The position numbers and the translations under genes were made by a program. Shown one piece after another: positions 504 through 19,500 of a stretch of 31,241 nt of DNA (its first letter is position 1; every line of letters begins with the position of its first letter). The notes beneath the pieces were generated by a model. The model did not search any database and was not told where the DNA came from. It saw only the letters and a list, made by a program, of their open reading frames with translations. The DNA is from a virus, in the IMG/VR virus record IMGVR_UViG_3300033144_001014, positions 1 through 31,241 of that record. One strand, given 5' to 3'.

Positions 504-782
504 TTATTTATCCTTTTTACTGTTTAGTTTACCATCAACCTCTCTACACCAGTAAAGTATTTCATCTACTTTTTCTTCTAGTTCATTTATATGTTCAGTT
601 TGCCATTGTTGTTTAAGATCATATTCAATTCTATCTATTACAGCTGGAGGTAAATTTTTTGCTTTTTCAATATCAGATTGTAAAGTATAATACATACCAA
701 CAAACGTTGCTGTTAAAACTACGATCTTAATTATTCCTTTTAAATCTAGTTTCACTTCGGTTTGATCACTTATTTTCGTCAT
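504..782 (-). CDS. Single-pass membrane protein (92 aa), holin candidate
   Basis: The protein has a short polar N-terminus, one strongly hydrophobic segment at about residues 16-34 (GIIKIVVLTATFVGMYYTL), then a charged helical region with heptad-like leucines and acidic residues (LEEKVDEILYW) and a lysine-rich end. This layout suits an inner-membrane protein with a coiled-coil tail. Its ATG overlaps the TGA of the giant gene (ATGA, 779-782), implying coupled translation. A holin or other lysis role is possible because of size, topology and position at the end of the structural module, but no endolysin is visible here. It could instead assist DNA ejection with the giant protein. Confidence 0.7.
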   Translation of the reverse strand: MTKISDQTEVKLDLKGIIKIVVLTATFVGMYYTLQSDIEKAKNLPPAVIDRIEYDLKQQWQTEHINELEEKVDEILYWCREVDGKLNSKKDK

Positions 783-3700
783 TTCTCCATTAACTCTAAT
801 AATTTTTTAACTCTATCCTCCTCATATTTTAAGGCTCGTATTTGTTTCTTACTTAAACCTAAACTATCTAACATTTCTACTTGTCTAGGTTTATTAAGTT
901 TTGTATAATCCAACGAGTCTAATTGGTATTGGCTATATCTCATTGGGCTTCTTTTAGTAGGTCCATCTCCTAATTCTGTAGTATGAATGTCTCCTGTTTT
1001 CTCTTGTAACTCAAGAATTTTTTCTGCTCTAGATTTTTTATCTTTTAAACTACTGATTTCTTGTTCATTTAATCCATGTTTCTTTAATATATCCACTTGT
1101 TGAGCTTTAGTATATAAATTAGGATTAGTTGATTTTTTATCTTCGTCTCTTTGTTCTGTAGTTTGTAGTTGCCATTTAGGCCAACCAGCAGCCATAGCTA
1201 TTCTCATCCACATAGCATTCTGATCGTCTCCCGCGTCTCTTAAGTTTTCTACTTTTTGTAATAGTCTATCTAATGGAATATTAGTAGTAGCAGAAAATAC
1301 TTTAGCAAAAGATTCATATGCTGGGTTATCTAAACTAAACCCTTTATCTATCATTGATTGTCTTCCTGATTTACTATCAAAAGGTCTTCCTGCACTTTTA
1401 ATCTTTTTCAACTTACTTTTTATAGCAGGTGAAAACTCTAATAACGTTTCCCATGCATCTGAATATTCCGGTCTATCTCTTCCACTTCTTTCATGTATAT
1501 CTAACAATAGATTTTTAACTACTGAAACTGTCATACCAGCAAAACCAATACCTCTAAGTATACTATCTACTCCTCCGTTTAATACATCCATGGTTTTATT
1601 TTCTACATCTTCATCTGATGAATCTCCAAAACCTAAAGCAAATGCTCCTTGCTGCATTACATTAAACCATAAGTTCTGCATAACACCATAGTAAAGTATT
1701 CTTCCTATTTTTTCTTTAGCACTACCTCTACCATTTATTAAATCTTTAAAATCAGCTTTTTGAATCCTAGCGTATTGCATAGGAGTGTTAACAAACTGTA
1801 GTAATATTCTACCTAAGTCGCTAGACTGTTGTTGTGATATTTTACTTGGATCAGAAGACTGTTGAGATTTTTCTGATATCTCTATAAACTCTTCCCATGT
1901 TTTAGCTTTTGCTTCTGCTTCACTCATACCTTGTTTTTTAACAAGATCGTTTATTCTGTTTCTAAACCATGTTGCTCCACCAGACGCAATAGCAAAGCTG
2001 TCAGCAAATCTAGTAGGTGCATAACCTTTTTCTAGAATATAAGCTACAGCGGCTTTAGCTTTATTAGTAGATGTAGAAGCTGCATCAGCTATTTCAGATT
2101 CACTTATGTTTATTTTTAAACCATTTCTTCTATCTAAAAGATATTTAGAGTTCATTATCTCCATGAAATCTTTCCAATATTGAGGTTGATTAGCAAAAGC
2201 TTTACCTGCTTTTATAGGGTTATTAAAGCCCATATTAATAAAGTTAGTAGCAGAAATTGTTTGAAGTATAGCTGATCTACTATTTAAGAACATAATAGCA
2301 CCTTGAGCATTGTTTATATAATCCAGTACTCTATCACTTAGTCTATTACCACTTTCAATTCTGTTTTTACCAGATTTCATTCTAGCTAAAGAGTTTTCTA
2401 AAGCTTCTCTATATTTAGGACCATACGCAGCTTCTAGTTTATTTAAATTCTTTTTAGAAAATATAACATCAACATTGTTATTCCACTCTTGTAAATATTT
2501 ACTTCTCTTAGTTGTATTTAATATATCTATCAAATCAGTTGTTATAGTTCCTGCTAACCAACTACTACCAGGTTTATTATAACCATCTCCTTTTGTTAAT
2601 TGCAGAATAGACTCTGCAAACACTCTAAGATCAGGTTCAGCATCTATAATTTTAGTTAGTTCAACTAGATCTGTTTTAGATAGTCCAGGTATTTCATGAC
2701 CTGCTTTATTCCATAAATAAGTTCTAACAGCTTGTTCTTTTGTGAAACCAGACTTAGTTTTTTCTCTTAAGTTTTTTGGAACATCTAGCTCAGCTTTTAA
2801 AGCTTTAAAATCACTCATCATATTTACTCTATCAGCCCTCATGCTTTGTGTAGCTCGGGAATAAGGTTTGTATAATGTTTCATTATAAAACTCTCTTTGT
2901 TGTTCTCCTAATTTTCCTTTTCCTAAAGTGTAATCCATTAGCCCTGAGAAATCTTCTGCTGATGGTGGTAACCAGAATTTTCTTTTTTGATTCTCCTTAC
3001 CTCTAATCTTAGCTTTAGCATCGGAAAATTCTTTTTGCCATTCAATACCTGTTTTATTCTCTATTATTTGATTAAACATTTTATCCATTACTTCTGAACT
3101 TCTATTTAATCTAGCTTGTTGAACTTGTGACTTAACATCAATAGGTTCTAAAGCTTCTTTAACAGCTTTAACATTAGCCATATGATCATCAGCAAAGTAA
3201 AAATCATTATAACCTTCTGCTGCTTTTTCAACTAACCATTCAGCTTTAGCTGCGCCTGTAGAATTACCTAACCCTTTAATGTTCTCTAAAGGAATATCAA
3301 TACCCATTTCTTTTAAGAAAGTATGAATAGCTTTAGCAGATTCTTGAGATCTAGCAGTTAATATAAACATGTCTCTTTCTCCTGGAGCTTCTTTCATCTT
3401 TTTCATTAAGTCGAACAACGGTCCTTTTTTACCTTCAACTACTTTATTGAAGTCAGAAAAATCCATTTTCCAACCTTCATTAACTAAACGTTCTCCTTCT
3501 TTAGCAAACTCCTCTGCTGTAAGAATTTTCTTTTCTCCACCTTTAGTAGCAAACACTTTACTATTTGTTCTAGCAACAGTATCATCAAAGTCAAACACTC
3601 TAGCTTTCTTAACAACAGGATTTATTTCTCTTCCAACATTTAAAGCTTTATCACTAGTTTTAGTTACTTCTATAAGCTCTTGTTTAGTTTTTCCTTTAGA

Positions 3701-6700
3701 TATTTCTTTATATCCTTCAATAATATTATCAACAACTTTTCTGTCTGCGGCTTTTACTTTTTCGTTTCTAGCTATTTTAGCAGCTGTTTCATGTGCTTTA
3801 CCATACTTAGCTGCATCTATGTCTCCTCCACTTTCTATAAACTTTTTAGCATCAACCATAGCTCTAGCTCTTGGATCTCCAAATGTAGCATAAGTATAAC
3901 CTCTATCATATCTTTCTCCACCTGGTACGACTTCAAAAGCATTAGGGTTGTCTACTTTATTATAGTCTTCTAGCATTTTATCAAAAGAGTTTTTATCTCC
4001 TTTAGTTCTACTTGTTTCAACTATAGCAGTTTCATAACTTTCTAAAGCTTTCATTATTTCAGCTCTACCAGTTTCACTTAATTTATTTCCTTCCCAATAA
4101 GTTTCATTCTTCATTAAAGTGGCTAATTCTCTTAACATGCTATCCGCAGCTCTTTTGTGCTCAATAGTCATGTCTTTTAATTTATCACCTTTAAAAGGAA
4201 TCATTATATCTCCTAATCCAGCAGCAGCTCTTATACCACCACTCATTGTACTATTAAGTTGGTTGATCAATAAGAAGCCTACCTCTGAATCTAACTTTCC
4301 TCTACGCATTTCTCTAAATACATATTCCATTTCATCTACTACAGATTCCTTGAATTCGTCAGCAACTCTTTTTCTATTAGTAAGATCTTCTGAAAGTTCT
4401 TTAAATTTCTCTGGATTAGCTTCAGCCCATTTTTTACCACCCATCTCAGCAGCTTCCATCATCCATGTATTATACTTCTTAACTGATTTAGGATCTTGAG
4501 AAGCTTTATCTCCTTTTACTTTCTCGCCATTGATTTTTAAATTCCCAAAGTCTCCTTTTTTATTTATAGTCCACTCAACTTTTACTCCTTCACTATTTTT
4601 AGTCTTACCAATAATTCCAGACTTAATTGTTACTCCATCTTTTCCTTTAGTAGTTTTTACGTTTTTAGCTAATGATTCGAACACTTGCCCTTTTGCTCCC
4701 CATACTTGCAATCTATGTCCTTCTTTATGACCAGCTGAAGTTAAATGATCTAATTTTCTATTGTAAATTCTTTCTATTATTTTTGCTTTTTCTTCTACAG
4801 TTTTACCTTTATTAATTTCTTCTATTAAATGTTTCTTACCTGCAGCTTGACCATCTTTATATCTAGTTTTTAATAGTTCTGTAGCATTCGTCTTAGTACC
4901 CATTATTGTTTCTTGTAGTTTACCAAGCGCTTGTTCAGCGTAAGCTGTTTTATCTAATGTTCTTTCTAATTCAAAGTCTTTTACTTTTTGTTCAATAGAT
5001 TTAATAGCTTCAACCTCTTTATCTACAACTTTAGCTTCTTTTACAATTCTACTTTTTTCTGCTTGATGACCTTTTCCTACTTTCTTAGCTATGCTAGCAG
5101 TTTCTCTAGCCATAGCGTCGATAAGTTTAGAATCAAACTTAAAACCTTCGAATTCAAAATCACTTAAAGCTTCTTGAAAAGCTTTTTTCCAAACGTTAGC
5201 TTTGCCCATAGTATAGGCATCCCAACCACTATATTCTTCTTTGTTTATTTTAGCTGTAGTTTCTTCTATGATCAAAGGCATTCTTTCTTTAAGCGCAACT
5301 GAAATAGCATCTCTAAGCTCAAGCTCTTTAGTTGGATCTTCAAAGTTTTTAGCACTGAATTCTCTAACATCTTTTGCTAATGTAGAAGATTTTCTAAAGT
5401 TACTTATCTCAATCTCTTGCTGTATCTTTTGAGTTACATCTGTAGCATCCAAATCTTTTGTTTTAAAAGCTTTACCAAACTCTTCTATGATACCACCTTG
5501 AGCTAGTAATTCTTTCATGTGAGACATGTAATCATCTCTTCTTAGATCAAACTCTTTTTTAGTTATTTCATTTCTATCATACTCTAATCTAGTCTGTTCA
5601 AAATCTTTTTCTACTTTATCTAACTCATATTCTATTTCATTCTTTTGTTCTACAGCTTCAATTAATTTTTTAGTACCATAACTATCTCCTAATTGGTAAG
5701 CTAAAGCATTTTTCTTTGTTGATATTCTCCCTACTTCAGTTAATTGATTAACAAATTTACTAATGTCAGCTTCAGTTATATTCTCTTTAACCTTAATAGC
5801 GTCCGGACCTGATGTCCATCTTTTGTCTCTTCCAGTACTACCTGAATACTTATTACTCTCAACTAACCAAGGAAAGTTTTTAGATAAATAACCTATAGGA
5901 ACATTCTTAACAATACCTGGGAAATTTTTACTAAGCCAAGTTTTATATTCAGCCTTATTCTTACCCATGCTTTTCTTAATAGCTTTCTCTGCTTTAGGAC
6001 CAAATTGTTGTTTAAATTCCCTTAAGAAAGGAGAGATAGTTTGATTAGGACCTTTAGGCGCGTTCATTTTTTCTACTAATGTAGGAAAGTCTAAAGACTT
6101 TATTTCTCTATTAAGATCAGCAATAGATGTTTCATTAAGACTTAATTGTCTCGCTGTTTGACCAGAGGTTTGTCTTTTATAAACTTCAGTACTAGCTTCT
6201 GCAGCGGTTATATCAAATCCTTTAGATTCTTTCATTTGATCTAGAGACTTAGTTGTTTCAAATATTCCCATGTCTCCAGAAATATTTAAAGCTTTATAAT
6301 GCAAGAAACTATTTATATAAGCAAAAAATCCTTTAGCTCCACTTTTAGTTTGTTTAGCTTCGCTAAAGCCTTTAACCAATTGAGACATCTCACTATAAAC
6401 ACTTTGCACGTAGTTAGCATCCATTTTTTTCGTCCAACCTTTTTCAAATCTGTCACGAGGTAAATGTGCTGCAATTAAATTATCTAGTAATCCATCTTGC
6501 TCCATTTCGGTTAAAGCTTTTTTCCAACCACCTTCTGCCCAGTCAGCTGCATTCTCTTTGTAAAGTTGAATCATCGCTGGCTCAGCATCTTTTATACTAG
6601 CCTTGTTTACTACCGCATCTACTTCACCGCTTTTATTAAGCTCCCATTTTTGATACTCTTCAATAGCCTTGTTAGCAACTTTACTTAATTTTTTTAACTG

Positions 6701-9700
6701 TCTTCCTTCTGCTTTTGCAAAGTTTAATAAAAAGTTTTTAGTTCCTTCAGCTGTGGTTAAATCAAAATCTTTAAACTCTGTATCTTTGTTTATAACTTCG
6801 TTTAGTTTACTTTTAATATTATTCCAAGGTCTCTTACCATCTTTAGTAATAAATTCATCTAACTTACCTTCTTTAACCATTTCAGCCCAAATAGTTATCC
6901 ATTCACTTCCCACGTATTTGCTATTGCCTTTAACATCTCCATGTTTCATTACAGCTTCTTTTACCAGATCATATTCTCCAGTATCTTTTAATAAGTCTAT
7001 AAAATCTTTAACAAAACCTTTGTTTTCACCTACTTGTTTCTCTACTAATGGATGAACTAGCTCGTGAAATAAAGTAGCTTTCTTAGTATTAGTTAATTTA
7101 AAACTTTGTCCTTCAGCGAGCATTGGTTTACTTCTTTCAAATCCTTTTCCAAAGTCCGCTTGTGCAGTTCTAGCTTTAACAGGTTCTGTAACGATATAGG
7201 TTTTAGCACTTTTACCATCTTTACTTTTAACGGTTACTTCGGCTCCATATACAGTTTCATTTATGTCAACATTAGATTTATCAGCTTTAATGTCAACTTT
7301 ATCTCCTTCCATCTTCTCTTTACCTGCTAGCAACTCATTGATAGTTTGATCTACTGTTTTCCCTTCTTTAACTTCTATATATTCAGGCTTGGTTATATTT
7401 TTCTTAAGAGCTCTTTCACCTTCTACTATAGCAGCTTCGTTTTCTTTTAAAGCTAGTTTTTCTTTTTCATATAATTCTAATTGCTCTGCTTTAATATTTT
7501 CACTTTCTATATCTAAAGTAGTTTTGTTTATTTGACCTTTTTTGTAAGCTTCTTTTAAACCTTCTAATCTAGAATTTAGTTCATATCCTTCTGATTGTAA
7601 TTTAAAAAACTTCCTTTGTTCTTTACTTCCAGGTTTAAACTTATATCTTTCATTTACTTTAGCTAAATTCTCACACCATTCTAAATACTCCTTAGCTTTA
7701 AACTGATCCATACCTGTGGATTCCATTATGTCTAAAACCATTCTATCTCTTCCGCCTTGAGTAACCTCCATACGAGCTATATTACCTAGATTAACTTGAC
7801 CCATTAAACCGCTGTCTTGACCAGCTCTTAATTGGTTTATAATCTCGTTGTATGTTCCTGCTAAAGTCCCTTTCCCAAAAATTCTATTCTCTGTATCTAT
7901 TTTTTCTCTTTGAATATTATCTACTTGTTCTTTTATTTTTAAGAAATCACTTAATTGATTTAAGTTAGTGATCGCGGCAAGTTTCTGATTTTTATCTAAA
8001 GATTTATCTGCTTTTATTTCTTGAATTCTTTTTTCTCTAGCTAAGTTAATTTCTCCTTCAGTCCAAGAACTTTGCCATGGGTTTTTATCACTATAGTTTT
8101 TAATCTTTCTTAAATGTCCATTAAACATTTCCGCTACTTGATTAAACTTTTTAGTTCCAGCGCTTTGACCTAAGTTCTTAACGTTAGAAGATAAAACATC
8201 GTAGCCCATTTTAATATCTTTCAATCCAGTACGTGTGCCCATAACAAGCATAGCTCCATAAGTTTCAATTAAAGAATCTGCATCTAAAGCATGATCCCAC
8301 CATTCTTTCCACGTTAATTCCTCATTAAATACATCTGCTAAAGTACTTGTTAATTCACCAGCTTTTATAGTAGCTGTACCAATGCCAGCTTGCAACATTT
8401 TTTTAGGCACATAACTAGCAAGAGCTAATGGTTGACCTAGAAGTAAAGGATTGTTTTTAATTATTCGTTGAGTACCTGTCCACTTTTGAGCTAATGGAGA
8501 ACCTTGAGCTGCTTTGGTTATCATTCGCTGATTAAAACCTCTATTAACTTTTGCTAATCGTCCTATCCCCAGTCTAGCTGCAGTTGCACCAAAAGCAAAA
8601 CTCCATACAGGCATTCTTTCTCTACCCCATAAATGACTTCCTAATTGGTTAGAACCTTCTAGTATCATAGCCTCATGCAACATAGCTTTACTCCATCCAC
8701 CCATTATTGTGGCAGTTTTTCTACCAACTCCTAGACCTCTATAGATCTGAGTCATTTTTCTCCCAATATTAGCTAATGCTATCTCACTACCTAAACCAAC
8801 AGTTGCAACTTCTATAAGAGCTGTTTCTATTGCCATAATAGCAAAAGTAGGAACTTGTCTTCCGATATTATAAAAATTTGAAACGTTATCAAGTTTTTTA
8901 TCTAGTTCTTGTTGTAATGTATTTGTCTCGTATCTTTCACCAGTCTCTTCATCTACCTCTGTTGTCCACTCAACTTTTACACCTAAATCTGCTATAGCTG
9001 AGTTAACAAATTCTTGCTGTAGCATGTCATTACTTAAGTCATAATCAGTTTTACCTACAGCTTCTTCCCATCCATCTTTAATACCTTCTACTACTCTATC
9101 TGCGGCTTGTGCTCTATAGCCTTGCCCTTTTTCATTTACTCCAAAAAACCCAGTTGTAATTCTAGCTTTTTTGTTTTCTAAAGAAAGAATAGGATCATAA
9201 TTAAGTAAGTATACTTCAGATAAAGCTTTAACAGTATTTAAAGTTTTATTATATTTCTTTGCAAAATCAGTACCGTTATGTATAGGAACTAATGTAGGTA
9301 GTTCTATTAAACCGGTCTCTTCATATTTTGCTAGGATTCTGTCAAATTCTTCAACTTGTTCTTTAGTACTTTTACCGAATAATTCTCCTACAGTGTCTAA
9401 GTATCCTATGCTACCAGTACCATAAGTTATACCAAATAAGCTCATACCAGCTTTGGAAGGATCTACTCCCATAGCTATATTTTTCATGTCTAATACAATT
9501 TGCAGTTGATATTTTTCTAACGCTGCTTGTATTTTAGAACTAGCAAAAACACCTGAAGTTAAATCTTGTTTAAGAGTTTGAATCCTCTCCATTTCTGCGT
9601 TTTGCTCTGGAGTTAAATCTTCTTCAGAAGGCCTAAGCATTTGACCGGTAGAAACATCAATTATTGGTGTGGCTTTGTTAGGATCTAATCTTCTAGAGAT

Positions 9701-11872
9701 AATATCTTTCCAAAGCTCTGGTAAGCTATCTAATTGTTTTTGAATTTCCCCTCCTACAACTTCTTGTTCAGCTTGATCAATAGCCTCTTGTTGAGTAACA
9801 CCACCTGCTTCAAATATTTCTTGAGCTCTAGATTTCCATGCTTCAGTTTTTTCATCTAACAAACTATTCATTTTCATGTTAACCTGTGCCATGTCTAAAG
9901 CATCTTGTTCAGTCCATTCTTGATCTGAGCTACCTATTTGTTTAAGTGAGCTGTTAAAAGTAGATTTTTCTTTTAAAACTTCTACTTGCTCCATTATTCT
10001 AATATCTATATCTACAGCATCTTCAGGTAAAGCAGCGGTTACATTCTCTACTAATTTTTCGCTAGCAGAAACTTGATACATGTTTAAAGTTTCTCCTTGT
10101 AGCATTTCCCAAGCAGCAGCACCATCTGCTGTTTTATTAAAATAAAAATCCATTAGGGGCTGCATGTTTCTTATAGATGCCCATAGATTATCATTAAAGT
10201 TTACTCCATCACCGTTTTTATAGTAATCATAAGCTTTCATCCATTGTTCTTTCCCATCATTATACATCTCTACTGCTTCTTCCCATTCCTCTAATGTACC
10301 TCCATTTATAAACTTTTTATTACCCCAAGCTTGTTGAGCATATCGTAAGTTTTCTTTAGCTTCACCAAGATTGTTCATGAATTTTGAAGGTGCCCAAGCT
10401 CCTCCATTTTCGTTAACTAATTCTTGAGCTGCTTTTACACTAGAGCTATGATACTGTACATCAGCAGATTGCCATAGATCCTCCAGCGAGTTCTTAAAAA
10501 ACCATGGACTTGTGTTTTCCCATATGTTTGTTGATGTAGGATTCCAATATTGAGTAAGAGAACTTTCACTATAAGGATTTGACATAAATATAGTAAAATC
10601 TTCACCATAAGGTCCAGCCCATCCTGCTACATTATCCCAGGCTTTTGTTTGCGGATTAAGTTCTTCAATTGCGTTTACATTTATTGAAGGAATAGTTTTA
10701 AAAGCTCGTGAACCATTAGGGTTAAATTGTTTATTGCTTTCAAAAGCATTTACAAATTTTTCCTGCATTTCTAAAGTCATACCATTCCACGCTGCTAATA
10801 ATTGTTCTTGACTCACTGATAATCCTTGGTTTTGACTCTGCATGAACTTTAAAAAGTTAGGATTAAATTTAATTGTGTCGTAACCTGTATGTTTAGCAAG
10901 TTGATTATACATATAAGATTTACGTAAACCACTTTCTTTCTCTTCTTTCTTTAATAAGTTTGCAGCATTAATGTCATACTCAATCTTCTTCTGGTGATTT
11001 ACGTAGTTTGTAGCAGATATTTCTGCTTCTACTAATGCAGCTGTGCCTTCAAGTCTTTCGTTGGAAGGTAGTTCTACTAATTCTCCTGTTCTAGTATTTA
11101 AACCATATTGACCTGATTTTAATTTACTTAAAGCCTCTTCACTAGCATCATCATCCATATAAGACCCTCCATACCTATACCACTGCTCCATACCAAACGC
11201 TCCATTACGAGTAAACGCATTTCCACTTAATCCATCAATAAGACCTTTGTGTCTTTTGTATGATATAAATGGAGCTACTGTTTGTAATTTCTTTCTTTTA
11301 GTGATATTAGTAGCTGCCCATTCTCCTAAGTCTTCAGCACTAGAACCCCATATTGAAGATCCATCAGGAAAAGTTCCTTTACCAACTAACTGCTCATTTG
11401 TTTTACCTCCATGTTTAGATAAAATCAATTTTGTATTGTCTATCCACTTCAAACCTCTTTTCTCTGCATTCGATTTAGCTTGAAAATGTCTTTGCTCTTG
11501 GGCCATATCCTTAAGCAATGGATTATCACTCTTAAATGCAGCCAATAAGTCTTCATTAGTTTTAAATTTCTTCCAAGAAGGTTGATCAGGTACCGGCTTT
11601 TCGATTGACGTACCGTTAGGATTATCATTACTCTTTACATTAGTTTTATTACCATGTACGGTATTCCAATAACTCTCTACAGTTTTATAATCATTTAAAC
11701 TTTTTAACTTCCTAAATTTAGACTGCTTAAATGTTTGACTAAAAAATTTATCATCTTCCAGCATGTCTTTAGTCCATGATTCTTGATCGTAATTATTTAC
11801 ATATGATGGATCATAAGCAATAATCTCACTCCAAAGAGAGGATAAAATATCTGGTGAAACTGTTTCTGGCAT
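779..11872 (-). CDS. Giant multidomain virion protein (3697 aa) with zincin and HAD motifs
   Basis: A single uninterrupted frame of 3697 codons. Visible regions: a long N-terminal part (1 to about 1000) without a recognised domain; a hydrophobic and glycine-rich stretch at about 1005-1230; charged helical segments; a metallopeptidase-type HELVH at 1603-1607 with glutamates at 1657 and 1664 as possible third zinc ligands; a HAD-phosphatase region with DFDDT at 2761-2765, T2839, K2876 and D2895/D2896; a following KFWLPPSAEDFSGLM segment; hydrophobic segments near 3397-3415 and 3437-3457; and two C-terminal helical repeats (3587-3625 and 3659-3697). The HAD-PSAEDF part resembles giant proteins of uncultured marine phages that I recall. 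Size, position after the small internal protein and mixed enzymatic content suit a polyvalent protein carried in the head and ejected with DNA, comparable in position to T7 gp16. I see no lytic transglycosylase or RNA polymerase motif. Ejection is inferred. Confidence 0.9.
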   Translation of the reverse strand: MPETVSPDILSSLWSEIIAYDPSYVNNYDQESWTKDMLEDDKFFSQTFKQSKFRKLKSLNDYKTVESYWNTVHGNKTNVKSNDNPNGTSIEKPVPDQPSWKKFKTNEDLLAAFKSDNPLLKDMAQEQRHFQAKSNAEKRGLKWIDNTKLILSKHGGKTNEQLVGKGTFPDGSSIWGSSAEDLGEWAATNITKRKKLQTVAPFISYKRHKGLIDGLSGNAFTRNGAFGMEQWYRYGGSYMDDDASEEALSKLKSGQYGLNTRTGELVELPSNERLEGTAALVEAEISATNYVNHQKKIEYDINAANLLKKEEKESGLRKSYMYNQLAKHTGYDTIKFNPNFLKFMQSQNQGLSVSQEQLLAAWNGMTLEMQEKFVNAFESNKQFNPNGSRAFKTIPSINVNAIEELNPQTKAWDNVAGWAGPYGEDFTIFMSNPYSESSLTQYWNPTSTNIWENTSPWFFKNSLEDLWQSADVQYHSSSVKAAQELVNENGGAWAPSKFMNNLGEAKENLRYAQQAWGNKKFINGGTLEEWEEAVEMYNDGKEQWMKAYDYYKNGDGVNFNDNLWASIRNMQPLMDFYFNKTADGAAAWEMLQGETLNMYQVSASEKLVENVTAALPEDAVDIDIRIMEQVEVLKEKSTFNSSLKQIGSSDQEWTEQDALDMAQVNMKMNSLLDEKTEAWKSRAQEIFEAGGVTQQEAIDQAEQEVVGGEIQKQLDSLPELWKDIISRRLDPNKATPIIDVSTGQMLRPSEEDLTPEQNAEMERIQTLKQDLTSGVFASSKIQAALEKYQLQIVLDMKNIAMGVDPSKAGMSLFGITYGTGSIGYLDTVGELFGKSTKEQVEEFDRILAKYEETGLIELPTLVPIHNGTDFAKKYNKTLNTVKALSEVYLLNYDPILSLENKKARITTGFFGVNEKGQGYRAQAADRVVEGIKDGWEEAVGKTDYDLSNDMLQQEFVNSAIADLGVKVEWTTEVDEETGERYETNTLQQELDKKLDNVSNFYNIGRQVPTFAIMAIETALIEVATVGLGSEIALANIGRKMTQIYRGLGVGRKTATIMGGWSKAMLHEAMILEGSNQLGSHLWGRERMPVWSFAFGATAARLGIGRLAKVNRGFNQRMITKAAQGSPLAQKWTGTQRIIKNNPLLLGQPLALASYVPKKMLQAGIGTATIKAGELTSTLADVFNEELTWKEWWDHALDADSLIETYGAMLVMGTRTGLKDIKMGYDVLSSNVKNLGQSAGTKKFNQVAEMFNGHLRKIKNYSDKNPWQSSWTEGEINLAREKRIQEIKADKSLDKNQKLAAITNLNQLSDFLKIKEQVDNIQREKIDTENRIFGKGTLAGTYNEIINQLRAGQDSGLMGQVNLGNIARMEVTQGGRDRMVLDIMESTGMDQFKAKEYLEWCENLAKVNERYKFKPGSKEQRKFFKLQSEGYELNSRLEGLKEAYKKGQINKTTLDIESENIKAEQLELYEKEKLALKENEAAIVEGERALKKNITKPEYIEVKEGKTVDQTINELLAGKEKMEGDKVDIKADKSNVDINETVYGAEVTVKSKDGKSAKTYIVTEPVKARTAQADFGKGFERSKPMLAEGQSFKLTNTKKATLFHELVHPLVEKQVGENKGFVKDFIDLLKDTGEYDLVKEAVMKHGDVKGNSKYVGSEWITIWAEMVKEGKLDEFITKDGKRPWNNIKSKLNEVINKDTEFKDFDLTTAEGTKNFLLNFAKAEGRQLKKLSKVANKAIEEYQKWELNKSGEVDAVVNKASIKDAEPAMIQLYKENAADWAEGGWKKALTEMEQDGLLDNLIAAHLPRDRFEKGWTKKMDANYVQSVYSEMSQLVKGFSEAKQTKSGAKGFFAYINSFLHYKALNISGDMGIFETTKSLDQMKESKGFDITAAEASTEVYKRQTSGQTARQLSLNETSIADLNREIKSLDFPTLVEKMNAPKGPNQTISPFLREFKQQFGPKAEKAIKKSMGKNKAEYKTWLSKNFPGIVKNVPIGYLSKNFPWLVESNKYSGSTGRDKRWTSGPDAIKVKENITEADISKFVNQLTEVGRISTKKNALAYQLGDSYGTKKLIEAVEQKNEIEYELDKVEKDFEQTRLEYDRNEITKKEFDLRRDDYMSHMKELLAQGGIIEEFGKAFKTKDLDATDVTQKIQQEIEISNFRKSSTLAKDVREFSAKNFEDPTKELELRDAISVALKERMPLIIEETTAKINKEEYSGWDAYTMGKANVWKKAFQEALSDFEFEGFKFDSKLIDAMARETASIAKKVGKGHQAEKSRIVKEAKVVDKEVEAIKSIEQKVKDFELERTLDKTAYAEQALGKLQETIMGTKTNATELLKTRYKDGQAAGKKHLIEEINKGKTVEEKAKIIERIYNRKLDHLTSAGHKEGHRLQVWGAKGQVFESLAKNVKTTKGKDGVTIKSGIIGKTKNSEGVKVEWTINKKGDFGNLKINGEKVKGDKASQDPKSVKKYNTWMMEAAEMGGKKWAEANPEKFKELSEDLTNRKRVADEFKESVVDEMEYVFREMRRGKLDSEVGFLLINQLNSTMSGGIRAAAGLGDIMIPFKGDKLKDMTIEHKRAADSMLRELATLMKNETYWEGNKLSETGRAEIMKALESYETAIVETSRTKGDKNSFDKMLEDYNKVDNPNAFEVVPGGERYDRGYTYATFGDPRARAMVDAKKFIESGGDIDAAKYGKAHETAAKIARNEKVKAADRKVVDNIIEGYKEISKGKTKQELIEVTKTSDKALNVGREINPVVKKARVFDFDDTVARTNSKVFATKGGEKKILTAEEFAKEGERLVNEGWKMDFSDFNKVVEGKKGPLFDLMKKMKEAPGERDMFILTARSQESAKAIHTFLKEMGIDIPLENIKGLGNSTGAAKAEWLVEKAAEGYNDFYFADDHMANVKAVKEALEPIDVKSQVQQARLNRSSEVMDKMFNQIIENKTGIEWQKEFSDAKAKIRGKENQKRKFWLPPSAEDFSGLMDYTLGKGKLGEQQREFYNETLYKPYSRATQSMRADRVNMMSDFKALKAELDVPKNLREKTKSGFTKEQAVRTYLWNKAGHEIPGLSKTDLVELTKIIDAEPDLRVFAESILQLTKGDGYNKPGSSWLAGTITTDLIDILNTTKRSKYLQEWNNNVDVIFSKKNLNKLEAAYGPKYREALENSLARMKSGKNRIESGNRLSDRVLDYINNAQGAIMFLNSRSAILQTISATNFINMGFNNPIKAGKAFANQPQYWKDFMEIMNSKYLLDRRNGLKINISESEIADAASTSTNKAKAAVAYILEKGYAPTRFADSFAIASGGATWFRNRINDLVKKQGMSEAEAKAKTWEEFIEISEKSQQSSDPSKISQQQSSDLGRILLQFVNTPMQYARIQKADFKDLINGRGSAKEKIGRILYYGVMQNLWFNVMQQGAFALGFGDSSDEDVENKTMDVLNGGVDSILRGIGFAGMTVSVVKNLLLDIHERSGRDRPEYSDAWETLLEFSPAIKSKLKKIKSAGRPFDSKSGRQSMIDKGFSLDNPAYESFAKVFSATTNIPLDRLLQKVENLRDAGDDQNAMWMRIAMAAGWPKWQLQTTEQRDEDKKSTNPNLYTKAQQVDILKKHGLNEQEISSLKDKKSRAEKILELQEKTGDIHTTELGDGPTKRSPMRYSQYQLDSLDYTKLNKPRQVEMLDSLGLSKKQIRALKYEEDRVKKLLELMEK
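782..1114 (-). repeat. Tandem ~39-residue helical repeat at the C-terminus of the giant protein
   Basis: Residues 3587-3625 and 3659-3697 align without gaps with 16 of 39 identities. Shared positions include a K-x-x-QV-x-x-L start, a central GL, then I-x-x-LK, a single R, and the ending LEL-x-EK. The linker between them is 33 residues. The pattern of a short helix, a GL turn and a second helix recalls SAP or helix-extension-helix units, which often bind DNA, but I cannot confirm that. The second copy is the last thing encoded before the stop codon. Confidence 0.6.
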
Positions 11873-11886
11873 TTAATATTTTTTAA

Positions 11887-13257
11887 TTATTTGTAAGGAA
11901 CATTTGTAGCTGCTGACGCTGGGTTACCTGAATCTGGCTTAACGCTTTCTTGATATGGATTCGGGTTCAAGGTTAATGCTCTATTCTTTAAAATAGTTCT
12001 TAATTCAGCTTTTAATTCTTTTGCTGTCTTTTGACCAAAATCATAATCTTCTTGCATCCATCCGGATAAATCACTTTCTAAAGTTTCCGATGCTAGAAAA
12101 GCCTCGAATAATTCATTTCCTGCTTCACTATCTAATAAAGCTTCTAGTTGTTGTTCATTGTTCCATGATTGAGCTCCTGGTTTAGCGCTAGCTCCTACTA
12201 CCGTTGACGATCCATCTGCACCTGTAAAAGGAGCGACAGTCATTTCACTACCGTCAGCTGTTGGTTGTACTCTTTGCAATCCTTTACCATGTGTAGAAAA
12301 CCATTGATTATACGCTTGATCAAAATCCTTTTGAAGTGATTGTAAATCTCCCACTGTTTGAAAAAATGTAGAGCTGTTACCATTTTTAAATTTTTTACCA
12401 ATATCACTAGCGTTAACAACACCTATATCATTAACATGATTGTAACTTATTTCACCAGTTTTTGGATCTGTTGTATACATGCTATTATTGGGATCTGCCA
12501 TCCATTCGGTTACATACTTTAACCGTTCTTCAGGGCTTATTCTACTATCGCCATCTAAATCATACGTGTCTGGAACATCTCCTGGTGCTATACTTTTATC
12601 CATAGGTATAAAGTTCCAATCTCCATTAGGATCTTCAGTAACAATTAAGTTTATTTCATCATCTTGTAGTTTGTCGAAAAGTATTTGCATTTGAGGATTA
12701 GAACTACTTAATATAGAATTACTTCTACCATCTTTTGGGGCGTTATAATACTCTTCAGCAGCAGCTGTAAAGTATGTTATAGTCTCATGTAACGACGTTA
12801 CTCTACCTAAACTACTTCCTATTAAATCTTGTATTTGTTGTTCAGTCATGTCATCAGCTCCAGGGCCACTTAGTTTCTGCGCTAACTCTTCTCCAATCTT
12901 ACTTAACTGTGCTGTAATTTGATTATTGAAAGCTAATAGTTCTGTTTCTTGAGCAGTAGCTCCTCCACCAATCGTGGTGTTTCCTTTCTGACCAGACTTA
13001 GCACCTTTCTTACCAAAAGTCTTACCCATGGCACTGTTCATTTTTTCTAAGTCTGATTTAGTTTGTTGATATTCAGACCAGAAATTAGTTGATTTAACAT
13101 CTCTTTTCTCTTGCCTTCCTTTTTTCAATGCCGCAATTTGATTCTTTCTTTTTGCTGCGTACTCTAAAAAACTATTCGGATTACTTCTTTGTCTACTGCC
13201 TTGTGCAGCGCGTGCGTCAGCTGCAGTGAAATATGCAGCAGGATTTTCATAGCTCAT
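11887..13257 (-). CDS. Probable internal virion protein (456 aa) with an EF-hand loop
   Basis: A soluble protein of 456 residues between the small internal protein and the giant gene, 10 and 14 bases from its neighbours. The N-terminal 90 residues are basic and repeat-poor; residues 101-170 look helical; residues 233-244 read DLDGDSRISPEE, which matches a canonical calcium-binding EF-hand loop at every ligand position (D1, D3, D5, E12, with hydrophobic I at 8). The C-terminal third is acidic and helical, ending in a proline/asparagine-rich tail. Position suggests a core or ejection protein like T7 gp15, but I see no sequence evidence for that identity. Calcium binding is inferred from the loop. 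Confidence 0.85.
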   Translation of the reverse strand: MSYENPAAYFTAADARAAQGSRQRSNPNSFLEYAAKRKNQIAALKKGRQEKRDVKSTNFWSEYQQTKSDLEKMNSAMGKTFGKKGAKSGQKGNTTIGGGATAQETELLAFNNQITAQLSKIGEELAQKLSGPGADDMTEQQIQDLIGSSLGRVTSLHETITYFTAAAEEYYNAPKDGRSNSILSSSNPQMQILFDKLQDDEINLIVTEDPNGDWNFIPMDKSIAPGDVPDTYDLDGDSRISPEERLKYVTEWMADPNNSMYTTDPKTGEISYNHVNDIGVVNASDIGKKFKNGNSSTFFQTVGDLQSLQKDFDQAYNQWFSTHGKGLQRVQPTADGSEMTVAPFTGADGSSTVVGASAKPGAQSWNNEQQLEALLDSEAGNELFEAFLASETLESDLSGWMQEDYDFGQKTAKELKAELRTILKNRALTLNPNPYQESVKPDSGNPASAATNVPYK

Positions 13258-13267
13258 AATTTATTTT

Positions 13268-14005
13268 TTATCCTTCTTTAAACTTACCATAATTTTTAAA
13301 AGCATCAGCCATGTTCCAATCGTCATTCCCTGCTGTTCCAAGTGCGAAGGCTTGTGTACCAGCATCAGCAAAGTCACCAATAGCTTGAGCAGTTTGTTGT
13401 TGAGCCATTTGTTCGTAAGCTACACCTGCTTGCATTGCTCTTTCTTCTAATCCACTTAATCTATTTAGTTTTGTCACATCTCTAACCTCTTGTCTATCCC
13501 ATGCAGAAACTTCTTCTGCTAAAGCTGTAGTTTCTAAATCTCTTATAGTTTGCTGTCTTTTAGCCTCTCCAGCAGCTCTAAGCTTTTGATTTTCTACTTC
13601 TTGCACTTCTATACTCGCAGATACTTCCGCTTTACTAGAAGCCGCCATTTGAGCAAGAGCAGTAGCATTACCAGCTCCTTCACCCATTGCTGCTATAGTA
13701 TCTAAAGTATTTGCTAAAGCTTTGTCTGTTTCAGCTACTTGCATGTCATAAGATTGCATAGCTACTCCTAAGTTAGCTGCTTCATTAAATACTTGTCCTT
13801 TTAAAGCTCTAATATTATCAGCTTGGTTAATAACTGGTTGACGTTGTTGTTCGAACCTTTCCATTTGCTGTCTTAACCTTCTTGCTTTCGCTTTTTCTAA
13901 CCTACCAGCTTTGTTGTTCTTGCTTCCTTGTACTGCCGCAGTTGTTCCACCTGCAACAGCCCCAACAATTCCAACAATCGCTCCTGTTATTGCTATAGTG
14001 CTCAT
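13268..14005 (-). CDS. Small internal virion / ejection protein (245 aa), T7 gp14-like in layout
   Basis: The N-terminus (about residues 4-26) is a hydrophobic glycine/alanine helix (IAITGAIVGIVGAVAGG), followed by a basic patch (KARRLRQQMERFEQQRQ) and then almost entirely alanine- and glutamine-rich helix to the end. This architecture, at this place in the order, is typical of the small pore-forming internal proteins of podoviruses such as T7 gp14 or P22 gp7. Such proteins are packaged in the head and ejected to help build the channel across the envelope. The ATG overlaps the stop of the cupin gene by four bases (ATGA), so the two are probably translationally coupled. The family call is from architecture and context, not residue-level homology. 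Confidence 0.75.
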   Translation of the reverse strand: MSTIAITGAIVGIVGAVAGGTTAAVQGSKNNKAGRLEKAKARRLRQQMERFEQQRQPVINQADNIRALKGQVFNEAANLGVAMQSYDMQVAETDKALANTLDTIAAMGEGAGNATALAQMAASSKAEVSASIEVQEVENQKLRAAGEAKRQQTIRDLETTALAEEVSAWDRQEVRDVTKLNRLSGLEERAMQAGVAYEQMAQQQTAQAIGDFADAGTQAFALGTAGNDDWNMADAFKNYGKFKEG

Positions 14006-14618: not shown

Positions 14619-16541
14619 TTAATTTGAAGATAACACAAAGTTTGATGCTGTGCTAAATATTTCTTTTCTTCCACCTGGATCTGTAGTTTTATCTACGCTT
14701 AATGTTACTGTAGCTACATACCCTTTTATTCCAGTCATTAGAGTTCCTAAGCTACTTCCATCAGCTGCTGTAGGATAATTTATAGCTGAACCAAATAACA
14801 CTTCGTTGTATCTTGGTTTAACATTACCACTAACAATGTCTGCTACGTATTGATTTTCTTTTCTAACAAAACCTGCATTATTAGGCATTCCACTTTCATC
14901 TATATAAAAACCTTCATCATAACTTAATACAGGTTGAGAGATGTCTCTAAAATGAACAGAGTTGGTATATGTAGGTGGTTGTATATTCCAAGTTCCATCA
15001 GGATCAAACTCAGTCCAATCTGATACTATAGTCACAGCTTCCCATCCATTACTACCCTCATATTCTATAGTTTTAAAATTTTTAACTACAGTGGGAGAAG
15101 GGTTAAATATAAAAGTTATATTAGAATCAGCAGGTGTAGCATCTCCATAAAACTTCCCATAATTTTTATTATATGGAGCTGTTGAAGATTCGTAGTAATG
15201 TTGATACACTCCACAGTTATAAAAACTGTAGTAGTTATTTTTTAAACTGTCTAAAAATAAAGGTCTATAACTATAAAAACTTACCCAACCTTGTACTGTT
15301 TCATCAAAGTTTAAAGTATAATAGTTTCCTTCTTCTTCTAATGAATTGGGAACTTGCTGTAATGATATTACATAATTTTGATTATGTATATCCCATCCAC
15401 CAACTATTCTTGGTTTTTTATATATACTAAAAAAGACACTTGCCTCATCACCAGAAAAATCATAAGGAGTGTTAATAGTTATAACACCTCCTACTACGTT
15501 TGTTACGGATACATTAGTGGTTTTTATTTCACCAGTATTTAAAATAAAAGTAACTAAACTTCCAGGTGGTATATTACAAGGTTTTGCTCCTTCTGTTTCA
15601 ATTTCAAATGTTAAATCAGTTTCATCGTCATAATCTAAAAAAGTATAAGAAGATGTCCCTACTAAAGAAAAGTTGTCACCAATGAAGTTTAAGTTATCTC
15701 TAAACCAGTCAGTCATTCCATATGCAGAAATTTCTGTAATTCCATCCATTGATAACCTACATACTACTCCTCTATCCCTATCTGTGAAATATTTTCTATA
15801 TCCAAATTGAGCAAACGATTCTCCGTTTTTACTAATACCATATTCTCCTGCAAAAGGATTCAATTGCCCGAAAAACTTAATTGATCCAGTATCTTGTGAA
15901 CCTTGATTTCCAGAATATAAAGCGTTTTTATTTATTAATATCTTGCTAACTTTAGCTTCTTGAAAAACATGCAATAGAGTATTTTCTATATACAGGTGTT
16001 GTATACTACCGTTTCTTTGTTCTAGATCTTTTTCAATATCATTAGCTACAGAGAACACATTAGTTTCATTATAACCACTTCTAGTGTTTAATATACCAGA
16101 ATGTATTAAGCTCCAATTTCTATCTTGTCCTACTGGATTGTCATCTACTGTATAAGCTCTTACTCCTAATGATAATCTTGAATTATTAAAACCTCCTTTA
16201 TATACACTTTCTTCAACATACCAATGTTGAGCAGAATAAAACAGGTTTGCTAATCCAGCAGGTACTTCACCTCCAGCTCCTTGCATTGTACCAGGAGTTC
16301 TAGTTGTTTGTGAAAAAGCATTGTACCACGGAAAATCGGGATATTGAATAGACAGTCCAGTTTGAGGATTGATATAACGTGGTTCCCACGGTAAACCAGG
16401 CCATTGACCAATTCCAGCCGCAATTTGTTTTTGAGTTAAATCTCCTTTCCATTCATCTTCCCCAGGCTCTAAACTAATGCTAGGGCAAACTTTTTTTAAC
16501 CAGAAACTGTTAAAGTATTTTATTTGTACATTAATTGCCAT
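14619..16541 (-). CDS. Tail protein (640 aa), beta-propeller-like
   Basis: The protein opens MAINVQIKYFNSFWLKKV. The segment from about residue 100 to 300 has conserved-looking stretches (NNSRLSLGVRAY; HSGILNTRSG; NGSIQHLYIENT; GEYGISKNGESFA; YFTDRDRGVVCRLSMDGI; YGMTDWFRDNL). From memory these match an uncharacterised structural family common in uncultured marine phages. The repeated turns of YFTDRDRG and CRLSMDG look like propeller blades, as in nozzle or muzzle proteins of short tails. The second half is rich in tyrosine, asparagine and serine, as in beta-rich fibre or tip proteins. It lies directly after the 1415-residue tail gene, suggesting the two products form one tail assembly. A receptor-binding role is possible but unproven. 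Confidence 0.8.
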   Translation of the reverse strand: MAINVQIKYFNSFWLKKVCPSISLEPGEDEWKGDLTQKQIAAGIGQWPGLPWEPRYINPQTGLSIQYPDFPWYNAFSQTTRTPGTMQGAGGEVPAGLANLFYSAQHWYVEESVYKGGFNNSRLSLGVRAYTVDDNPVGQDRNWSLIHSGILNTRSGYNETNVFSVANDIEKDLEQRNGSIQHLYIENTLLHVFQEAKVSKILINKNALYSGNQGSQDTGSIKFFGQLNPFAGEYGISKNGESFAQFGYRKYFTDRDRGVVCRLSMDGITEISAYGMTDWFRDNLNFIGDNFSLVGTSSYTFLDYDDETDLTFEIETEGAKPCNIPPGSLVTFILNTGEIKTTNVSVTNVVGGVITINTPYDFSGDEASVFFSIYKKPRIVGGWDIHNQNYVISLQQVPNSLEEEGNYYTLNFDETVQGWVSFYSYRPLFLDSLKNNYYSFYNCGVYQHYYESSTAPYNKNYGKFYGDATPADSNITFIFNPSPTVVKNFKTIEYEGSNGWEAVTIVSDWTEFDPDGTWNIQPPTYTNSVHFRDISQPVLSYDEGFYIDESGMPNNAGFVRKENQYVADIVSGNVKPRYNEVLFGSAINYPTAADGSSLGTLMTGIKGYVATVTLSVDKTTDPGGRKEIFSTASNFVLSSN

Positions 16542-16562: not shown

Positions 16563-19500
16563 TTATGATGTTACAGTTATTTCCGTAGTACAGGTATCAG
16601 TAAGTCCACCATCATCTAAGACTTCTACTTCTAAAGTATATGTTCCTAACGGTATATCTTGTTGGAAGAAAACTTGTATTAGGTAAGGTTGTACTAAAGA
16701 GTACGTCCAAGTATTAGGTCCAGAAGGAATAGTAAGTCCAGTTGAAACGTCTGTTATTCTAGCTCTTTCTCCAGTACCATAATCTTTCCATGTTATGCCA
16801 CAATATAAGTTTGGATTCGTCATTATAGTTCCATTACTAGCAGAACTATTATAAACACCCCATGGCCCCGGACCTGATCCTGATTTACTAAAGCTATATG
16901 GAAGTGGACAACTCGCTATTTTAGGAGATTTATTTAATAATGTATAAGGACCTAATACTACTTCGGTATAAATAAAACTACCATCTACAGGATAAGTAGG
17001 AGAAGGTGATTTAACAGTTATGAAAAATTCAAATGTCAAAGCTTCACCATTACAATAAGCAAAAAATGCGTTTGTGTTTAATTTATAGTGACCACTAGTT
17101 CCATCAGGTACAAGGCTAAATCTAGAAGAAACATCAACAGTACCGGAAAGAACTTGAGTTAGTGTCATGGTAACAGGTCCTGGCATAGTACTATTATCTA
17201 TTATAGTACCCGCTGATGAAAAAGCACCTATAGGTGGATCACTAAACTCTCCAAATATATTAGTTCCTATATCAAACTCTTCGTTTTGTTGATAACTTAA
17301 ACCTCCAGATGGCACTCTACCTAATCTTACTGGTGTAAACTCATCTCCATTTGTAATTTGAAAATTTAATTCACTTAATAATCCACTAGAACTAGTCTCC
17401 CAATATATATCTAATTTAGATTCTAAAGCTTTAGTTTCTAAAATAGCAAGTTCAGGTTCCATTAAACCTGGCCATTCTTCTTTATCTATTGTTAGTTTAA
17501 CTTCTCCATTACCATCACCAGCACCTGTTATTTTAACATCAACTTGGTATGGGTAAAAATTTTGTGGAGAGACAAATCCTTTGACTCCATTTTGTCCTTC
17601 AGTATTTGAAACATTTATACCACCATCAATTAATTCTCCATATGAAGAGTCATCAGAACTAAAATTACCAGATGCAATGTCTTTAACTCCTTCAATATTA
17701 AACAAAATACCTTGCCCAGCTTCTCCTGTTTTATCATAAGGGGCTGGATGAGTGCTGGAATTTGGTTGTACTTTACCACCTACGTTTCTACTTTTAGGAA
17801 CGTATTCGTCTCCTGTAGATCCTGCAATAACACATGTATCACATACAGAGTAAGTAATTAAACCTGCGTCAGGTGAAGGTCCATATCTACCAAAATATCT
17901 TAATTCATTATCAACACAACCAGAGTTTAAAGCTTGTAAAGTAGGAGCAATATTAATTTTAGCTATTAAAGGATTATTTTCCCAGCTATAGAATACAGGA
18001 GCAGTATTATATGGTGGTACAGCAGATGGATCCCATAAGCCTAATTCTTGCCCTGTACCTATTGTAACCGCTGTGGAATACTGCTGATCAGGATACCACT
18101 GAGTTTGAATCATATCTGTATAAGTAGTAGTAGGATCCATAATAATAGAAGAATTTATAACTCTTGGAGATAAAGAAACCAATGCATTATTTATTTGACT
18201 TCCAGAATCGAGTTGAAGTTCTCTATCTCTTTGTTTTAGTAAAGTCTCAGCTTCTTGTTCATAAGGGTTGACTGTGAATGCTTCTCCCGTTGTATCTACA
18301 AATTCATAATAACTCGGATCATCTTTTACAGATGGTCTACCACTTCTAAATAAATTTTGAGTAGGTCCTACTAAACTTAAATCTCTAGGTATTTTATTAA
18401 TGTTATCTCCAATTAAAGCAAAATGAGCAGTTGGTAAAGAAGGTGTTGCACCTACAAAGTGCCTGTTGTCACTCCACCCAGCATTAGGACCTTCACCATC
18501 TATAAAACCATTTAAAATACCAGGCGTATAAACATTGTAATAATCATTTTCTGGTTGTTTTACAACAGCTGTCCAAGAATACCATCCTAAAGGATTAGGT
18601 TTTTGTAAATTAAGTAATTTAAAACTAGCGTTATTATCTCCACCAGGAATATTAATTATATCTCCTTGTTCATAATTATACCCAACATCTGTAATTGCTA
18701 TTTGATCAATTGGTCCAGGTACTCCTGTAGTACTTTGAATTAATAAATTTAAACCAGTTCCTGATCCTTGACCTGCAAAAGTACCAGGTATAAAAGCTGT
18801 AGGAGCATAACCAGTTCCCTTACTTATCCATTCTATAGCGTCTGGATCAATCCAACCTTGCCCAACATACATTCCTGGTGTACCAGCCTGACTATTAAAC
18901 GTAGAGGTAATAGGACTAATAAAAGTATAATTTATAGCATCACCTGCCCAAGTGCTAGTTGGACCCGTGGCTGACCATGGTCCAAGCAAATTATTTTCAG
19001 TAGCTGGTCCAAAAAGTGTTCCATTATAATTAGAAAAGGTGTTATTAGACGTAGGAAAAGTTGCAGGATCTCCAGCTACAGAACATCCCTTTTGAAGACC
19101 TTGTTTAAATTCATGATAAAAGGTTGACGCATCGTCATTGCTTAGTATTACTGATGATTTTCTTCCATATCTATCTGACAAAACTATTCCACCTTGATAA
19201 CTTCTGTTTTGTTTTAAAGTGTGATTTTGATATTCTTTTCTTAAATTTTCAATATTTTCTCCATCTTTTTGAGAAGCACTAACAACATAGTCTATAGTAG
19301 AAGGTGGAGTTGGTTTATCAAAAAAGTTTCCATATATAACTCTATTTTCTGCGAACTCTTGAGTTAAAGCTCTTACAGGTACTTTATCATAAACTCTTAA
19401 TAAATCCTTATTTGGAAGAGATTTATAAGGAGCTTCACTTTTGTATTTATATTGGAAAAATTTACTATTTAGTAAACCTTCCGTATCAGCTTCTTTTGCT

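Follow-up and report, generated by a model that had tools for sequence, protein, structure and literature searches.

The giant gene that closes the late operon of the marine viral DNA analysed here encodes most probably a phage-type polyvalent ejection protein. Sequence comparison with its relatives identifies the 3697-residue product as a recombining carrier-plus-payload protein, in which the C-terminal third is constant and the N-terminal two thirds appear to be exchanged wholesale by recombination. The whole stretch of 31,241 bases, called the window below, is IMG/VR record IMGVR_UViG_3300033144_001014; end repeats are absent, and the window is a metagenomic genome fragment. Its main genes are all encoded on the minus strand. 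Terminase and portal come first, followed by a 394-aa gene, the capsid gene and connector-like genes; next are two muzzle-like genes, one fibre-like gene, the gp14-like gene, a 456-aa gene and finally the giant, which is thus the last gene of a portal-capsid-muzzle-gp14-like late operon. The 394-aa gene between portal and capsid is scaffold-like, as judged by its position. The genes used in the following are:

29696..31195, minus strand: terminase large subunit (phrog_6681), its 5' end lost at the window edge
27287..29695, minus strand: portal (phrog_6547, E 8.8e-144)
24579..26060, minus strand: major-capsid-like virion protein (phrog_13704, E 2.9e-95)
16563..20810 and 14619..16541, minus strand: two crassvirus-muzzle-like tail genes (Pfam crAss_MUZ and crAss_MUZ_C)
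13268..14005, minus strand: gp14-like ejection protein gene, homologue of phi40:1 gp099
11887..13257, minus strand: 456-aa gene between the gp14-like gene and the giant, lineage-variable, with homologues in 13 loci only
779..11872, minus strand: giant gene P0001, one ATG-started frame of 3697 residues with no internal stop

The portal is 39-50% identical to the portals of MW202828, Maribacter phage Panino and Flavobacterium elemo phages, and further portal relatives were found in Cellulophaga and Tenacibaculum phages. The window phage is accordingly related, by its sequence, to flavobacterial podoviruses, and because its portal relatives sit in flavobacterial phages, the host is probably a flavobacterium. 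Two small genes lie close to the central ones. A 203-aa gene at 14002-14613 matches PHROGs short tail fibre/adhesin families and occurs in just 14 of the loci that were read, and a 92-aa gene at 504-782, with one hydrophobic stretch and homologues in 19 loci, overlaps the stop codon of the giant by 4 bases. The initial annotation had placed an EF-hand protein ahead of the giant; an EF-hand-like DLDGDSRISPEE loop can indeed be recognised by eye in the 456-aa gene, but the Pfam search of its product gave no EF-hand match.

The description of a single 3697-residue gene filling over one third of the window proved exact (779-11872, minus strand, 35.5%), and the predicted protein has a mass of 417 kDa. 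The selection that the initial annotation had read from so long a frame in AT-rich DNA was also borne out. Local GC within the gene is 0.32-0.35, and dN/dS, calculated in the same frame for close pairs of relatives, was 0.09-0.24 for the N-terminal part and 0.06-0.13 for the C-terminal part. The frame is a real gene under purifying selection as judged from these sequences, because selection is seen in the close pairs and because complete relatives exist: 78 complete giants measure 2331-3675 aa, and one more, L109 from record G021, reaches 4686 aa. This longest giant carries about 850 residues (~3122-3973) between its HAD domain and its C-terminal module, in which no Pfam domain was found. The hydrophobic regions ascribed to the protein come down to one clear Kyte-Doolittle peak at residues 1010-1028 (mean 1.69), followed by residues 3441-3459 (1.36), and the overall hydrophobicity is modest.

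Searches with the giant by itself returned little. No domain passed in the Pfam search, and tblastn of the N-terminal 2791 residues against annotated phages gave no match at 0.01; matches of the C-terminal 1001 residues were limited to Gundel_1 and a single record of an uncultured jumbo phage. BLASTP against the giants at the same place in MW202828 (L001:741-12320) and Panino (L002:8229-13718) showed no convincing match, and these two join only via the family network. They are annotated as 'reticulocyte binding/rhoptry protein' and 'tRNA methyltransferase', which is probably misleading. Record G008 (50058 bases) holds two giants, L104 and L105, on opposite strands and each preceded by a gp14-like gene, which points to a genuine duplication or else to an assembly chimera. 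In the search of genome contigs, phage-type giants were also found on two MAG contigs (L207 and L208), labelled Caldiserica and Woesearchaeota, which are probably phage contigs binned into those MAGs. The regions of the window giant, as defined by all analyses together, are the following:

7295..11872, minus strand: variable N-terminal part, residues 1-1526, found in just 0-14 of 81 relatives, with the hydrophobic peak at nt 8789-8845
6773..7285, minus strand: predicted zincin metallopeptidase domain, residues ~1530-1700, with HELVH at nt 7052-7066 and Glu1657 at nt 6902-6904
6281..6508, minus strand: sigma-70 region-2-like domain, residues ~1789-1864, from hhalign with controls, Pfam in relatives and a PDB profile search
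3098..3619, minus strand: predicted HAD phosphatase of the T4 Pnkp 3'-phosphatase type, residues ~2752-2925, from motifs, profiles and fold
1133..3163, minus strand: constant C-terminal module, mostly helical, residues ~2904-3580, from the alignment of relatives and a structure model
782..1099, minus strand: a pair of short helical repeats at the C-terminus (residues 3592-3622 and 3664-3694) with a linker

The last ~800 residues of the giant have matches in at least 579 IMG/VR loci, of which 80 with the C-terminal module were read, and the C-terminal tail region matches 36 proteins. Residues 2720-3570 are common to about 67-81 of 81 relatives, whereas just 0-15 show recognisable similarity to the first 2600 residues. 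Since the relatives were found by their C-terminus, its universality is by construction; the contrast within pairs of giants is not. Between L194 and G037, and between L194 and L205, the C-modules are ~90% identical, yet N-terminal homology is undetectable. L130 and L129 share 94% in the C-terminal part and 49% in the N-terminal part, and L130 and L128 share 85% and 95%, respectively. With both parts under purifying selection in close pairs, replacement explains the missing N-terminal similarity of the ~90% pairs better than decay does. When 19 unrelated N-terminal parts were surveyed with Pfam and PHROGs, a kinase was the sole domain found. Another payload difference is a DUF3293 domain (E 1e-12) in the giant of a Flavobacterium elemo phage (L122:3-11006), unseen in the others. 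The model of the C-module, compared with BFVD, matched C-terminal pieces of entries named PolyVal ADP-ribosyltransferase and large polyvalent protein, with E 1e-4 to 1e-6, 10-15% identity and low TM-scores of 0.3-0.4. At the level of these models the module resembles the C-termini of phage proteins annotated as polyvalent, and some of the named matches may be driven by helical content. A PDB sequence search with a profile of the HAD domain and C-module gave no match.

Packaging of the giant was approached through its neighbours and a cultured relative. In 59 of 60 loci the giant is preceded by a gp14-like gene, which has homologues in Cellulophaga phage phi40:1 (gp099, E 3.5e-29) and in four other cultured phages (Gundel, elemo, Panino and phi46:3). 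The T7-gp14-like gene noticed ahead of the giant therefore belongs to a conserved family, but its kinship with T7 gp14 was not detected by sequence: the family profile A6 returned no gp14 chain from the PDB, and position, size and an N-terminal hydrophobic stretch fit. Virion mass spectrometry in a cultured relative, proposed as a check in the initial annotation, is on record for phi40:1, in which gp099, gp100 and gp101 are annotated structural with the note 'experimental MS/MS proteomics analysis'. gp101 is the giant at the same place, being the final gene of the same late operon with the gp14-like homologue gp099 two genes upstream. It matched L137, a giant with the C-module, by BLAST, with E 2.9e-12 before and 4e-6 after masking and reversed decoys no better than 1.1-1.2, and in iterated profiles its residues 83-688 were matched by 35 proteins of the set. 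With phmmer under default filters gp101 found phi46:3 gp120 only, and BLAST and iterated profiles recovered the rest with clean decoys. Gene 74 of Tenacibaculum phage Gundel_1, annotated structural, combines a gp101-type N-terminal part and the C-module in one protein. The gp101 homology concerns the N-terminal part of other giants; because that segment is absent from the window giant, the case for its packaging is built on module homology and synteny. From these we infer that the window giant is very probably packed in the virion and sent into the bacterium.

The peptidase-like and phosphatase-like motifs noticed in the giant were both recovered, as HELVH at residues 1603-1607 and the HAD motif DFDDT at residues 2761-2765. 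An iterated profile seeded with residues 1580-1800 recruited 91 giants, with reversed decoys staying above E 0.03. H1603, E1604, H1607 and E1657 are kept in 90-91 of the 91, while hardly any other column reaches 70%. The same H, E, H and E columns were obtained from two MAFFT alignments, one of them made on whole unrelated N-terminal parts, and HExxH is present in 84 of 87 giants against a shuffled mean of 0.48. In an AlphaFold2 model of moderate quality (pTM 0.36), three strands and a helix are followed by the HExxH helix and then a helix beginning at the Glu; this strand and helix order is that described for polyvalent zincins (PMC5512222). Foldseek with this moderate model returned nothing under 0.001, a second structure search listed no zincin row, and a PDB sequence search with the zincin and middle profile gave only weak unrelated matches. 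These negative fold searches leave room for a zincin. The zincin active site is complete and conserved amid otherwise variable sequence and marks a predicted peptidase.

In the HAD domain, motifs I-IV are intact, with D2761 and D2763 (I, DxD), T2839 (II), K2876 (III), and D2895 and D2896 (IV, DD). The domain matched phrog_415, polynucleotide kinase, at E 1.8e-5, and TIGR01664, DNA 3'-phosphatase, was matched in 6 of 54 relatives (best 2.2e-5). Structure alignment with the T4 Pnkp phosphatase gave Z 11.6 and rmsd 2.6 over 123 aligned residues; the fold list is led by 5uj0 (Z 11.6), 4xrp (Z 11.4) and 1ltq (Z 10.8), which are T4 Pnkp and Pnkp1 structures, with Nir2 next at 10.3. Three independent pointers from sequence and model thus agree on a predicted Pnkp-type 3'-phosphatase. 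In four related proteins a P-loop kinase of the AAA_33/zeta type, with GGPGSGKS, is nested in the HAD domain just after motif I (L131, residues ~2412-2583; L132, ~2411-2582; and the two giants of record G008, L104, ~2425-2600, and L105, ~2179-2354). As read from these sequences, the nested kinase restores a kinase-phosphatase pair in nested form. The likeness to T4 Pnkp thus covers the phosphatase fold and, in these four proteins, the P-loop kinase; unlike T4 Pnkp, where the kinase precedes the phosphatase, the window giant has the phosphatase only and the kinase of its relatives sits in the phosphatase cap.

The middle of the protein, where the initial annotation could name no domain, turned out to hold a sigma-70 region-2-like domain. 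It is a divergent domain right behind the zincin, present in ~80 giants with the motif FDPE..n..fsgYIns.L..r. Because a full-length sigma HMM was noisy on the giants, the assignment is based on profile-profile comparison of region 2 with a profile of 19 sigma factors, taken from E. coli, from phages and from a small number of environmental genomes. The hhalign probability was 78.7% for the window reference (1789-1864), 92.3% for L183 and 91.4% for L192. This short segment could instead be a generic helical hairpin unrelated to sigma factors, a reading that we consider a serious one although somewhat less probable than kinship. The match spans only 44-84 columns, the alignments show other residues at the polymerase contacts of region 2.2 (LIQEG), the Gln, Glu and Gly not being kept, and a search for the region 4 helix-turn-helix with PF04545 matched stand-alone ~250-aa proteins only and none of the giants. 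Against a generic hairpin, the scores of 33-40 stand far above those of 29 control windows (at most 14.8) and of column shuffles of the related alignment (at most 11.4). Moreover, sigma factors make up 8 of the 11 PDB sequences found at E up to 10 with the family profile (best 0.028), and Sigma70_r2 is the commonest Pfam match among relatives (3 of 51, best 4.6e-4). Whole-record searches gave Sigma70_r2 in two unrelated giants (E 6.8e-6 and 1.9e-5), both short of the curated cut-off, and sigma factors also turn up repeatedly, though weakly (Z 3-5), when this part is aligned by structure. Homology of the giant domain to sigma-70 region 2 is therefore likely from the sequence comparisons, and an action on host transcription is a weaker suggestion. 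Stand-alone ~250-aa sigma-70-like genes occur in four phages that also encode a giant (L211-L214, in G067, G050, G042 and G052), and possibly serve later transcription.

The conservation of the active sites also bears on what kind of virion protein the giant is. It could be mainly a mechanical ejectosome protein, an analogue of T7 gp16 or P22 gp16 forming a trans-envelope channel, with its enzyme domains as relics. The operon place behind a gp14-like gene, the long helical C-module and the moderately hydrophobic stretches would suit such a protein, but the zincin and HAD catalytic residues are kept in almost all relatives while the surrounding sequence is lost, and the payload regions are exchanged, which would not be expected of a channel component that has fixed partners; we regard this reading as unlikely. 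Quite unlikely, too, is a zincin that serves as a virion-assembly protease, trimming the giant or capsid proteins before packaging, in a giant without a role inside the host. P1 DdrB, which is shortened to about 76 kDa by cleavage before it is packaged and for which a virion-assembly protease has been proposed (PMC5512222), provides a precedent, and the peptidase is near-universal in the giant family; this would nevertheless leave the conserved HAD phosphatase and the nested kinase unexplained. A virion RNA polymerase of the kind carried by N4 and crAss-like phages would match the giant size, the late-operon place, the crassvirus-like muzzle genes and the peptidase fusion of N4 vRNAP, but was rejected as highly improbable, the giant having neither a DxDxD-type motif nor a Pfam or PHROGs polymerase family.

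A polyvalent protein packed in the capsid and injected with the DNA, as the initial annotation had proposed, is thus the best reading, favoured by synteny, the gp101 homology, the conserved active sites and the likeness of the C-module. The internal virion proteins of T7 are ordered gp14-gp15-gp16, and behind its gp14-like gene the giant would sit where podoviruses encode their third internal virion protein, the position of the T7 gp16 and P22 gp16 ejection proteins. It is about three times as long as T7 gp16, with peptidase and phosphatase where the T7 gp16/P22 gp16 type has a transglycosylase. Since the 456-aa gene is lineage-variable, two of the three putative ejection proteins would be swapped. 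As a polyvalent ejection protein, the giant would be held in the particle near the portal by the C-module, which would also take it through the tail. In the cell, the zincin may cut its own chain or host proteins and so free parts of the giant once it has entered, in line with proposals made for polyvalent proteins, and the freed parts would act ahead of phage gene expression. The Pnkp-type 3'-phosphatase could heal cut ends, for example of tRNA or DNA broken by host defence, and the sigma-region-2-like domain might, more tentatively, engage the host RNA polymerase. The full scheme, in which a self-cleaving virion protein brings in a sigma-region-2 module that seizes host RNA polymerase before phage expression, is possible but doubtful. 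If true, a virion sigma-like factor would be the counterpart of the whole-polymerase delivery of N4 and crAss-like phages, on a constant carrier with exchanged payload.

The closest known systems are the phage-type polyvalent proteins (Iyer et al. 2017, PMC5512222), which the giant resembles in being very large, multidomain and virion-side, in its late-operon place and in having a zincin as hub. It shares with them at least two disparate domains (zincin and HAD of the 3'-phosphatase type) with several unrelated activities, a zincin-like HExxH helix with a Glu in the next helix and, by fold at low TM-score, the uncharacterised C-terminal domain of large polyvalent proteins. Unlike them, its C-terminus is constant, its N-terminal part is swapped wholesale and no Pfam domain passes. 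A carrier/payload organisation at such scale, a Pnkp phosphatase with nested kinase and sigma region 2 were absent from the searched text of PMC5512222, and no virion sigma-like factor was found in the part of the literature that our search covered. phi40:1 gp101 (KC821612; Pervagoviridae) is alike in its operon place after gp099 and gp100 and is an MS/MS virion protein; it differs in its length of 1691 aa and in having no detectable zincin, HAD or C-module, while the window giant lacks the gp101 N-domain. The N4 virion RNA polymerase, a giant injected virion protein with a zincin beside a transcription module, is a parallel, but in the window giant a sigma-region-2-like domain, not a polymerase, adjoins the peptidase. 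By description, not direct comparison, the giant is also like the phiCrAss001 cargo proteins gp45-gp50, which are large and helical and are expected to be partly unfolded on their way through the tail, and the window encodes related muzzle proteins; unlike gp45-gp50, the giant has no RNA polymerase signature (PMC10172136). The role suggested for the C-module in packaging and exit may be compared with phiCrAss001 gp45, whose C-terminal part is portal-bound and for which an N-to-C exit has been proposed (PMC10172136).

What is new is the design of a constant C-terminal and a swapped N-terminal part, together with a sigma-70 region-2 match beside the peptidase (probability 79-92%, far above controls). 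A large and almost unannotated group of marine phage genes, with the module in at least 579 IMG/VR loci, is thereby tied to one testable idea, that of exchangeable N-terminal cargo on a C-terminal delivery module that stays fixed. Cultured relatives are named for packaging tests and catalytic residues for mutation, and in some phages a sigma-like domain and an enzyme healing nucleic-acid ends may be injected along with the DNA.
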